64,000 nucleotides of DNA from Bacteroidia bacterium. Lineage in GTDB: Bacteria; Bacteroidota; Bacteroidia; Flavobacteriales; Flavobacteriaceae. Under the pieces are notes generated by a model. It had not been told where the DNA came from, searched no databases, and was given only the letters and a program-made list of their open reading frames with translations. The DNA is taken from positions 62,001-126,000 of the forward strand of contig JAUIAY010000002.1 of the NCBI GenBank assembly GCA_030425285.1, written 5' to 3'. The position numbers and the translations under genes are program-made. Positions 2,009 to 34,511 of this stretch are shown one piece after another. Position 1 is the first letter of the stretch, and every line of letters starts with the position of its first letter.

Positions 2009-3823
2009 ATGACAGCATTTAAATTATTAAAGGTCGCATTTGTTCTACTGTTAGTCGGGTTGGTTTCCTGTAACTCGATACCAGAAGAACAGCAAGAGCC
2101 CAGAACTGTGAGTAGAGATGGTAAAGCGTATTTGGTGCAGGATTCTGTGTTAATCACCACCAGGGATGGTGCGAAAGTATCTGCTATAATAGTTAGGCGC
2201 AAAGCGGGAACAAAACCACAGCCAGCCATACTATTTCATACCATATATACGCGAGCAGAGGACATTAACAGAGCTTATGAAGCAGCCGATAAAGGCTATG
2301 TAGGTGTGGTGTCGTACACCAGAGGGAAACATTTAAGTCCGAACGACATAACGCCCTATGAGTATGAAGGTCAAGATGTGTATGATGTTATCGATTGGAT
2401 ATCAGAGCAGGCGTGGAGCAATGCTGAAGTGGGGATGTATGGTGGTAGTTACGCTGGTTTTGTTCAGTGGGCTTCGATGAAGGAAGCTGTACATCCGGCC
2501 TTGAAAACGATTGTGCCATCGGTTGCTGCGGCTCCAGGTATTGCAGAACCTATGGAAAATGGTGTTTATTTTAACTTTCATTATCCGTGGTGGCATTATG
2601 TGACGAATAACAAAACGCTAGATACCGTGTCGTATTATAATGGCAAACGCTGGAATGATTTGTATGTTGATTGGTATCAAAACGGTGTGGCTTATAAACA
2701 ATTGGATCGTTTGGATGGTGTGCCCAATCCGGGATTTAATAAGACACTGGAGCATCCAACATTTGATAGTTATTGGAAACGCATGACGCTCTATAACCAG
2801 GCGGATTTTTCTAAAATTGATATACCTATCTTAAGTACTACAGGGTATTATGATGGTGGGCAGTTTGGGACCATGCACTATTTAAAATCCCATTATCAAT
2901 TTAATGCCCATGCCGAGCATTACCTTTTGATAGGGCCTTATTCTCATTTTGGGGCACAAGAACGTCCTGAAAATCACATCCTAGGCTATGATATTGATCC
3001 CGTAGCGCAGATAGATATTAAGAATTTAATCTTTGAATGGTTTGATTACATATTCAAAGATGCCCAGAAACCCGCATTGTTACAGGATAAAATAAATTAT
3101 CAAGTAATGGGTGCCAATTCTTGGAAACATGCACCATCACTGGATAAAATGACTACAGACTCGTTGCAAGTATATTTTAGTAAGCAACGTTCTAGTGTGG
3201 CGTTTAAATCGACCTATGATACTGGCAATCTAGGTGTAAACGAACACTTTAGTTTAGCTAAAAGTGCTGATGCAACAAGTTATATAGAACAAACCATTGA
3301 TATGTCTGACCGGAGTCAATTCTCATGGAATTTAAGTGGTGATCGTAGTATTGTATCAGAAACCTTAACGGTTGGTCAAGGTTTCTCGTTTACTACAGAA
3401 CCCTTTGATGAAGATACGGAGCTAACTGGAGCAGTACGTGGTGTTCTAAACGTGGCTATCAATAAAAAGGATTTTGATTGTCATGTGTTACTCTATGAAC
3501 AAACCGCAGATGGCAAGTTCTTTAGTTTGACTTTACCATTTACAACACGAGCCAGTATGTCTCAAGATATGGAACACAGAAACTTGCTGACTCCAAATGA
3601 AAAGACTGCTATACCCATTAGTAATTTTAGAATGACCAGTAAGAAAATTAAAAAAGGAAGTCGCATAGTTGTTATTATTAATGGCATTAAACATCCGTTT
3701 TCTCAAATAAACTACGGAACCGGAAAAGATGTAAGTGATGAAACTATTCAAGATGCTGGAGAACCTTTAGAGATTAAATGGTATACTGATAGCTATATTA
3801 ATATTCCGATTTCGAGGCATTAA
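2009..3823 (+). CDS. CocE/NonD-family hydrolase (X-Pro dipeptidyl-peptidase-like), lipoprotein
   Basis: 604 aa. The signal peptide has a lipobox (LLVGLVSC, Cys21), so the enzyme is envelope-anchored. The alpha/beta-hydrolase domain (peptidase S15 / CocE type) has the nucleophile elbow GMYGGSYAG with Ser147. The C-terminal part from about residue 400 looks like the jelly-roll PepX_C domain, consistent with the family length of 550-650 aa. Members cleave X-Pro dipeptides, cephalosporin-type esters or glutaryl amides; the true substrate cannot be read from sequence. It sits behind a lipoprotein gene in a likely two-gene unit. Confidence 0.9.
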   Translation: MTAFKLLKVAFVLLLVGLVSCNSIPEEQQEPRTVSRDGKAYLVQDSVLITTRDGAKVSAIIVRRKAGTKPQPAILFHTIYTRAEDINRAYEAADKGYVGVVSYTRGKHLSPNDITPYEYEGQDVYDVIDWISEQAWSNAEVGMYGGSYAGFVQWASMKEAVHPALKTIVPSVAAAPGIAEPMENGVYFNFHYPWWHYVTNNKTLDTVSYYNGKRWNDLYVDWYQNGVAYKQLDRLDGVPNPGFNKTLEHPTFDSYWKRMTLYNQADFSKIDIPILSTTGYYDGGQFGTMHYLKSHYQFNAHAEHYLLIGPYSHFGAQERPENHILGYDIDPVAQIDIKNLIFEWFDYIFKDAQKPALLQDKINYQVMGANSWKHAPSLDKMTTDSLQVYFSKQRSSVAFKSTYDTGNLGVNEHFSLAKSADATSYIEQTIDMSDRSQFSWNLSGDRSIVSETLTVGQGFSFTTEPFDEDTELTGAVRGVLNVAINKKDFDCHVLLYEQTADGKFFSLTLPFTTRASMSQDMEHRNLLTPNEKTAIPISNFRMTSKKIKKGSRIVVIINGIKHPFSQINYGTGKDVSDETIQDAGEPLEIKWYTDSYINIPISRH

Positions 3824-32524: not shown

Positions 32525-33301
32525 TTATTTTTTGTTTACATTCAGCTCCTCGTCTATTCTTTTTATGACTGCGTCTATTTTTTGGATGGTGTTTACTTCT
32601 TCATTGACTTTTAAGCTTCGGGTAAATAGAATGACCTGTAGGGTTTTTAGGAGGTCGTTATCATTTAAAAACTGCTCATAGTTTTTTACTTTTAATTTGT
32701 AGACCATGATAGTATCGGTGTGTTTAAAGCTTAAGTGCATGGTGTCGGCAGTATCGGCAAATAGATATTTGTCCTGAAACGGATATAGGCTATTTCTAAA
32801 ATCGAAATTGGTGTTTTTCATTTCCAGTTCATTTTCCAAGCGTTTGAGGTCCAGTTGAAATAGATTGGTGATGGCAATGCGCAGGCTGTCATTAGACAAG
32901 GTGTTCAAGCCCATGTTCTTTAGGTTTTCAAAGGCACTTGTTTTGGGGATTATCTGAAAGTCGTCACTGGCATCTGTAAATAATTTATAAACGGTATCGG
33001 AGTATGGCTTTTTATCATGAATATGAAATATTAATTTTTGATTTGATTTTAGTACTTCTTTATGCTTTGCAATGGTTTCTTCAATATCAGTTTTGGTTTG
33101 TAGTAAGTCGTTTTTTAGTTCGTTGTAAATTTGTGCTTCTCTGATTTTTACTTTTCGGTTTTCGTTCCAGTTGTTGATTTGTAGGGCAATTAGAATACCG
33201 ATAACTACTAGAATGATTTCGCCAATGGCATATTTTAGGTACTTGCCTGTTTTGTTTTCACTCATAAGGTTGTAACGTATGTGTCTGAAAAACTTAATCA
33301 T
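32525..33301 (-). CDS. DUF6090 family protein, array copy 1
   Basis: 258 aa. It carries the array's common N-terminal module, MIKFFRHIRYNLMSENK followed by a conserved KYLKYAIGEI and a membrane segment (about 28-45, ending QINNWNENR). The basic N-terminus predicts N-in topology, with about 210 mostly helical residues outside the membrane. The C-terminal part is not visibly similar to the other copies. Its start is one base after the GIY-YIG stop, so it may be read from that transcript. Function unknown. Confidence 0.85.
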   Translation of the reverse strand: MIKFFRHIRYNLMSENKTGKYLKYAIGEIILVVIGILIALQINNWNENRKVKIREAQIYNELKNDLLQTKTDIEETIAKHKEVLKSNQKLIFHIHDKKPYSDTVYKLFTDASDDFQIIPKTSAFENLKNMGLNTLSNDSLRIAITNLFQLDLKRLENELEMKNTNFDFRNSLYPFQDKYLFADTADTMHLSFKHTDTIMVYKLKVKNYEQFLNDNDLLKTLQVILFTRSLKVNEEVNTIQKIDAVIKRIDEELNVNKK

Positions 33302-33302
33302 A

Positions 33303-33656
33303 TTAACAGTGTTTGTCAGGTCGAGCGGAGTCGAGACCTATTTTGCTATTTAAGTATTTAGAATGTGTTTCATTTCGGCATTGTGCTAATAATTGTAATA
33401 AATCGTACTCTTTATTTGCTAAAGCCAATTTCTTTTTTGCGCTCCATTTTTTAATTTTCTTTTCAAAAAAGATAGCTTGCTCAACATCATTGAACTCTTG
33501 ATTAAAAATGAGCTTTAAAGGCCTCCTTTTATATGTAAAGCATGTTTTGTTTAAGCCCTTATTGTGTTCTTCCATTCGTCTTGATAAATTATTGGTGATT
33601 CCAGTGTATGTTAATCCATCAGAACAAAGCAGTATATAAACATAGTATAATTTCAT
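33303..33656 (-). CDS. GIY-YIG nuclease-domain protein bracketed by inverted repeats
   Basis: 117 aa. A single GIY-YIG domain: YVYIL and YTGITNNLSRRMEEHN (residues about 5-32), then the catalytic-type Glu in DVEQAIFFEKKIKKWSAKKK. This matches the small UPF0213-like GIY-YIG family. The last 11 residues (GLDSARPDKHC) are encoded by a 26-bp repeat, whose perfect inverted copy lies just upstream of the start. The gene splits the DUF6090 array. Nuclease activity is inferred from motifs; a role in moving the repeats is a hypothesis. Confidence 0.88.
   Translation of the reverse strand: MKLYYVYILLCSDGLTYTGITNNLSRRMEEHNKGLNKTCFTYKRRPLKLIFNQEFNDVEQAIFFEKKIKKWSAKKKLALANKEYDLLQLLAQCRNETHSKYLNSKIGLDSARPDKHC
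33314..33339. repeat. 26-bp inverted repeat, left arm (inside the GIY-YIG 3' end)
   Basis: The core GGTCGAGCGGAGTCGAGACC is the exact reverse complement of 33675-33700 over all 26 bases, with no extension. It encodes the final residues of the GIY-YIG frame. Confidence 0.95.
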
Positions 33657-33778
33657 TGTGTAGTTTTATTATTGAGGTCTCGACTCCGCTCGACCTGACA
33701 TTCCCCGACTGCGTTCGACCTGACATTCCTCGACTCCGCTCGACATGACCGTTTTGTATTTCTAAAGAATTTTATCAT
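33653..33778 (-). pseudogene. Truncated DUF6090 start fused to repeat DNA (41-codon frame)
   Basis: It starts ATG and encodes MIKFFRN, the first seven residues of the DUF6090 family, then runs without interruption through the repeat units. It stops at a TGA that overlaps the GIY-YIG start (ATGA). It is either a remnant of a gene broken by the repeat element or a leader coupled to the nuclease gene. The overlap itself is partly automatic, because ATGA offers a stop in that frame. Confidence 0.6.
33675..33749. repeat. Right arm of the 26-bp inverted repeat plus two more tandem units
   Basis: Three head-to-tail units with a period of about 25 bases: 33675-33700 (exact partner of the left arm), 33701-33725 and 33726-33749. 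Each contains CGACT-CG-TCGAC-TGAC; units 2 and 3 differ from unit 1 by a few bases. Confidence 0.9.
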
Positions 33779-33785
33779 GGGTTGG

Positions 33786-34511
33786 TTAGTTTATTATTTC
33801 CGATTCTATTAGAACAGCGATGTTATTAAGAAATTTCAACAATTCATTCTCTTCATCTAAACCTTCTTGCCTTACTACTGTAATGAAATTCACCCACCAA
33901 ATAAATTCAGGATTTTGAAATGATTCTTTATTAGCTGAAGAGACTTTTTTGTTATAAATAATGGCTCTTTTTGAAGCTATCATTGGCCAATAATATTCGG
34001 ATCTAATTTTTTCTATAACCTGTGTAGATTCTTTTGCATCAATAATAGATTCGTTAATTGAAGATAACATATACCTTATTTCCTTATTCTGAATGAGATT
34101 GATTCTTCCTGAATTTATTACGGAATTCAAAATGCCCAGTTTGGGGTCATAGGTATAGTTATAGTTCATGCTTATTAAAATGGAATTCAAACTATCGTTT
34201 GATATGCTTTTTAGTTTACTGGAATCAATTATCATAGACATTATTTCATTGCCTGCAGCCAACGATTTTTTATGCTCGTCTATTATCATTTCTAATTCCT
34301 TGATGTTAGATTTTATCTCGTTGTTTAAATCAAATAAGACCTCTTGTTCAGAAAGGGTATCAACCCGCTGTTTGTTCCAGTTACTAACTTGTAAAGCAAT
34401 TAAAATCCCTATAACAACAAGAAAAATTTCGCCAATGGCATATTTTAGGTACTTGCCTGTTTTGTTTTCACTCATAAGGTTGTAACGTATGTGTCTGAAG
34501 AATTTAATCAT
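33786..34511 (-). CDS. DUF6090 family protein, array copy 2
   Basis: 241 aa. The N-terminal module (MIKFFRHIRYNLMSENK) is identical to copy 1 for 29 residues, and a 74-base stretch (34426-34499) is identical in DNA to copy 1 (33216-33289). The membrane segment is about 28-45, then an alpha-helical exterior domain with no visible similarity to copy 1. It starts 2 bases after the end of copy 3, so it is likely cotranscribed. Function unknown. Confidence 0.85.
   Translation of the reverse strand: MIKFFRHIRYNLMSENKTGKYLKYAIGEIFLVVIGILIALQVSNWNKQRVDTLSEQEVLFDLNNEIKSNIKELEMIIDEHKKSLAAGNEIMSMIIDSSKLKSISNDSLNSILISMNYNYTYDPKLGILNSVINSGRINLIQNKEIRYMLSSINESIIDAKESTQVIEKIRSEYYWPMIASKRAIIYNKKVSSANKESFQNPEFIWWVNFITVVRQEGLDEENELLKFLNNIAVLIESEIIN

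Follow-up and report, generated by a model that had tools for sequence, protein, structure and literature searches.

The analyzed stretch of DNA (hereafter the window, 64 kb of a 3.12-Mb genome) carries a small GIY-YIG nuclease gene that is bracketed by a perfect 26-bp inverted repeat, with further, diverged units of the repeat standing in tandem beside the right arm (Table 1). The two arms are separated by 335 nt, while the figure of 387 bases given as the enclosed stretch in an earlier note on this sequence is the outer span including the arms. The arms form the only 100% complementary pair among the 10 inverted pairs of at least 20 nt listed for the whole window, and the ORF reads through the left arm and ends 11 nt beyond it. 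The nearest named match was Hanstruepera neustonica (97% protein identity). A search with PF01541 gave 66.9 bits, and residues Y7, Y17, R27 and E65, which are likely to be catalytic in GIY-YIG enzymes, were invariant in 39 aligned relatives. The AlphaFold2 model was nearest to UPF0213 proteins (E 6e-5 and 2e-4) and then, more weakly, to Slx1 (E 0.004-0.07), a nuclease of branched DNA. No NCBIfam name (E<=0.001), PHROG phage family (E<=0.01) or, in 33000-34000, Rfam RNA element (E<=0.1) was matched. The flanking genes belong to a tandem run of related genes with a similar N-terminal DNA block, which was matched many times in all five congeners.

Table 1 Features at the GIY-YIG locus (positions in the window).
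Position	Strand	Feature	Support
33303-33656	-	GIY-YIG nuclease gene, 117 aa; tail GLDSARPDKHC encoded mostly by the left repeat	PF01541 E=2e-18; invariant catalytic-type residues; AlphaFold2 mean pLDDT 83
33314-33339	+	Left (3' of gene) TGTC-tagged hairpin repeat, tag 33314-33317	Exact reverse complement of 33675-33700; covarying stem
33675-33700	-	Right (5' of gene) TGTC-tagged hairpin repeat, 18 nt from the start codon	Exact reverse complement of 33314-33339
33706-33725 (approximate)	-	Second, diverged unit in tandem with the right arm	90% complementary to the left arm over 20 nt
33731-33749 (approximate)	-	Third unit of the tandem; absent from the sister copy in congener G003	Alignment with G003
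33757-33778	-	Apparent remnant of a MIKFFR.. gene start directly beside the repeat array (inferred)	In congener G001 a 364-aa gene with this start follows the ortholog of 33786-34511
32525-33301	-	Flanking gene of the tandem MIKFFR.. family (258 aa), not part of the element
33786-34511	-	Flanking gene of the same family (241 aa); its ortholog in G001 lies beside a site without the element	89% DNA identity
32525-37574	-	Tandem run of related MIKFFR..KYAIGEI genes

In a next step, the repeat was characterized across the genome. The core TCGAGCGNAGTCGAGA has 26 exact places and 1 place with one mismatch (7 more with two mismatches), whereas the reversed-pattern control gave 2 forward and 1 reverse at up to two mismatches. 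Three of these 27 places are at this gene and 24 are elsewhere, and five pairs of them stand head to head, 29-45 bp start to start, too close to hold a gene. Over 239 distinct contexts from the related loci described below, the unit reads TGTC-N-NN-TCGA-GCGNAG-TCGA-GA-N'N', with a TGTC tag in 228 contexts. The two variable stem positions were Watson-Crick in 227 and 238 of 239 contexts, where shuffling gave means of 123 and 98, while the next outer position does not pair (113 of 239, shuffle mean 122). Each unit is thus a tagged hairpin with a bulge, like a REP, and the doublets resemble REPINs.

To assess whether the gene and the repeat go together, we examined the best 80 of 238 related stretches in a collection of bacterial and archaeal genomes, by their titles Flavobacteriaceae or unplaced Flavobacteriales/Bacteroidetes. 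Sixty-eight of these loci (family A, the family of this repeat) have the repeat within 300 bp on both sides, and 186 exact-pattern units lie in the gene or within 300 bp of it, against 8 expected from the density beyond 600 bp. Of the 71 loci with an intact ORF (9 of 80 were set aside, 7 with truncated and 2 with fused ORFs), 56 have a '+' unit within 75 bp upstream, 61 have a '-' unit within 60 bp of the stop and 53 have both, while the wrong orientation was seen in 4 and 2. In 149 family genomes, one per genus, 27 carry the gene (E<=1e-30), 23 of them once, and all 27 have at least 6 copies of the repeat (median 29). The other 122 genomes have a median of 1 copy (U test p=3e-11, relatedness not corrected), although 33 of these 122 have 6 or more copies.

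Other GIY-YIG subfamilies carry their own tagged repeats. In five congeneric genomes we found 27 small GIY-YIG genes, and different subfamilies are bracketed by different tagged palindromes, for example TGTCATTCCTGCGNAGGCAGGAATCCA, TGTCATTCAGA.. and TGTCATGCTGAACTTGTTTCAG. An inverted repeat of 20 nt or more (at most 3 mismatches) joins the two 150-bp flanks in 12 of 27 of these genes, family A included. In a sample from 61 Bacteroidota genomes (80 regions, best-scoring matches first; 93 gene places, 90 scored), it does so in 12 of 28 long genes and 11 of 62 short genes, against 3 of 143 other ORFs of the same regions. Accordingly, 51 of 62 genes in the short group gave no bracketing signal, and 4 of its 11 positives come from one tandem array with another palindrome. 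At one locus (L259, G203:C34:4991-11748), eight short-class GIY-YIG genes stand in a head-to-tail array, separated by a different palindrome (TGTCCGCCTAAGGCGGATA). By eye, many of the remaining long genes also show TGTCA/CGTCA-tagged palindromes on one or both sides, with unlike arms that the measure misses. A tagged-hairpin detector proved too strict (both sides in 4 of 28 long genes, 0 of 62 short genes and 1 of 143 controls) and also fired on one side in the wrong orientation (3 and 7 of 28), so that only the inverted-repeat measure was used. Protein similarity and flank-repeat similarity correlate in the genus (Mantel 0.43, p=0.0005), although some between-genome pairs may be the same locus, and within single genomes (Spearman 0.41 over 64 non-independent pairs).

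The layout was also found beyond the phylum. A subfamily B protein found 33 plasmid records, and of 15 loci read, 11 have an inverted repeat of 20 nt or more, ten of them of 29-40 nt (Rhizobium, two Shinella, S. meliloti, Neorhizobium, Azospirillum lipoferum, N. gonorrhoeae, Novosphingobium, Sphingobium and Aeromonas caviae) and one of 21 nt (Planktothrix). Spirosoma has 19 nt, and Photobacterium GJ3, R. tumorigenes and Sinorhizobium K101 have none. In N. gonorrhoeae, the two paired arms point inwards, opposite to the usual orientation. On a Planktothrix agardhii plasmid, a GIY-YIG gene with repeat-like flanks sits between a type IIL restriction enzyme gene and a DISARM drmA gene. Four further loci from the search with the window's protein gave 26 nt (Methylobacterium), 24 nt (Sphingomonas) and none (a Xanthomonas plasmid and a plasmid-borne Bacillaceae YazA-type gene, which lies beside rsmI), i.e., 13 of 19 plasmid loci in all, compared to 0 of 67 control ORFs of Azospirillum.

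Several of these repeats (for example CGTCATCCTCGGGCTTGACCCGAGGATCCA) fit the CGTC-tagged REPs surveyed in PMC3733652, which include Neisseria dRS3 and Rickettsia RPE-4/6. Read by eye, the repeats around GIY-YIG genes in Rhizobium, Shinella, Sinorhizobium, Neorhizobium, Azospirillum, Neisseria, Aeromonas and subfamily B of this genus show the CGTC/TGTC tag, an 8-9 bp stem beginning AT, a 4-5 nt loop and mostly a CCA tail. Among the loci read this way (L287-L289, L291, L292, L295 and L300), the downstream unit of L288 breaks its outermost pair, the downstream unit of L289 has an extra A after the tag, and two L295 units have tails CCG and CTA. The repeats of Sphingobium and Novosphingobium keep the tag but do not begin AT. 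The window's own repeat shares the tag and hairpin stem but departs in its 6-nt GCGNAG loop, its 2-nt GA bulge, its variable first stem pairs and the lack of a CCA tail, and is a variant of the tagged REPs that does not fulfill every CGTC criterion.

We next asked whether the gene is conserved in place. At the window's own site, congener G003 shares the right-hand junction, while G001 lacks the element beside the ortholog of the right-hand neighbor. The copy in a further congener (G004) lies between two genes that stand together without it in all 4 other congeners. In A. lipoferum, two REP doublets and the gene sit between sufB and sufC, which are adjacent without it in A. oryzae, A. ramasamyi and Azospirillum sp. 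B510 at about 95% identity, and these four units are the only matches to the REP pattern used in that 50 kb. A Shinella strain likewise lacks another copy, at about 79% flank identity. The junctions in these comparisons were too diverged to fix the insertion ends to the base or to read target duplications. The 80 family A loci fall into 32 groups that share both neighbors (22 if one same-side neighbor suffices), although some of the singletons are due to short contigs. Some groups have up to 16 loci, so that inheritance in place is also common.

Overall, these data confirm the inverted repeat described in the earlier note and support and widen its reading as a minimal mobile element comparable with REP-associated transposases but with another enzyme class. 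We favor, with moderate confidence, a REPtron-like selfish unit in which a GIY-YIG nuclease takes the place of a RAYT, and in which the dispersed single units and short head-to-head doublets act as non-autonomous partners. As appears to be the case in REP/REPIN systems with RAYT (in part PMC3733652), the enzyme gene is bracketed by inverted tagged hairpins that are dispersed in the genome as singlets and head-to-head doublets, and there is mostly one gene per genome. It is not a RAYT system, because the enzyme is GIY-YIG instead of HUH/Y1, an unrelated fold, and the tag is TGTC/CGTC instead of GTAG. No Y1 transposase was detected in the window's genome with PF01797, a family that was matched in 5 of 14 control genomes, which makes a resident RAYT unlikely; other transposase classes were not searched. 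We infer that the nuclease recognizes the tagged hairpin or the cruciform formed by the doublet and nicks at its base or tag, much as the GIY-YIG enzyme Slx1 cuts branched DNA, and that the break lets repair or replication copy the doublet, with or without the gene between its arms, to a new place. The association is shown by our data, while nicking and mobilization remain inferences, as no cleavage, binding or movement was observed. GIY-YIG enzymes probably hydrolyze and do not rejoin DNA, so that a transposition step would need host repair. Against a strict link, the window's genome has 16 places of the subfamily B repeat although none of its four small GIY-YIG genes was seen to be bracketed by it, as expected if repeats outlive their enzyme but also if another agent serves them.

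The 2013 survey reported that the CGTC superfamily of REPs, found in five phyla, 'apparently lack a dedicated transposase', and suggested that the enzymes were lost early or that broad-spectrum transposases serve instead (PMC3733652). It lists A. lipoferum, S. meliloti, N. aromaticivorans and Neisseriae among the carriers. No paper linking GIY-YIG to REPs was found in our literature searches, some of which were inspected only in their top-ranked entries. A GIY-YIG gene bracketed by such repeats in several of the named carriers makes the question directly testable with a ~100-residue protein and a ~30-nt hairpin, and would give a role to a set of small genes annotated only as 'GIY-YIG nuclease family protein' or 'excinuclease ABC subunit C'. 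In its broadest form, which we consider about as likely as not, tagged REP palindromes across bacteria would be spread by a large, unrecognized class of mobile units encoded by single-domain GIY-YIG nucleases, each subfamily tuned to its own hairpin. These would be the missing enzymes of the CGTC REPs (including dRS3 and some Rickettsia palindromic elements), with a transposition route that uses hydrolytic nicking of hairpins and host repair, independent of HUH, DDE or tyrosine/serine recombinases.

An alternative explanation, which we consider unlikely, is homing only, in which the nuclease cuts repeat-bearing sites and its gene is copied in by break repair using the repeats as short homology arms, while the repeats themselves are spread by something else. 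GIY-YIG appears to be a homing-endonuclease class (I-TevI type), the gene sits where the spacer of a doublet would be, and the grouping of the 80 loci by their neighbors indicates that the gene changes place. However, homing does not by itself explain why genomes with the gene hold many repeats or why protein and repeat similarity correlate. Apparent differences from homing endonucleases of this class are that no intron or intein was seen, the 117-residue model has no separate DNA-binding domain, and the arms are hairpins. It is also doubtful that the protein is a domesticated structure-specific nuclease with a host function, trimming or resolving cruciforms at REP doublets, with the bracketing reflecting past insertion or regulation of its own gene by hairpins. 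The neighbors kept across up to 16 loci, the single copy in 23 of 27 carrying genomes and the weak match to Slx1 would be in line with such a role, but 7 of 80 loci have truncated ORFs (assembly errors not excluded), 122 of 149 genera lack the gene at the cut-off used, and empty sites exist.

That the gene is a passenger, caught between repeats moved by an unrelated transposase acting in trans, seems more unlikely still. Repeats do occur without the gene, in places in number, yet the pairing recurs with different repeats in several subfamilies and phyla (Bacteroidota, Pseudomonadota and one cyanobacterial locus), and the only transposase class searched for in the window's genome, Y1, was not found. 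Chance or ordinary bidirectional terminators can hardly account for the data: hairpins next to stop codons are probably common, but this possibility is disfavored by the control ORFs, the shared tag, the covariation and the multicopy nature of the repeats.

The repeat-encoded C-terminus, which the earlier note had highlighted, is incidental, as it was present in only 15 of 71 intact relatives. In two related loci (L109 and L110, from position 3001), the GIY-YIG ORF runs in frame through what look like repeat-encoded linkers into a second enzyme-like domain (ORFs of 459 and 451 aa), so that repeats may act as peptide linkers, as reported for rickettsial palindromic elements. Two further loci (L223 and L269) have predicted N-terminal extensions that look repeat-derived (CHSESLDEES; SLRAKRGNP), which is probably caused by start-site misreading.
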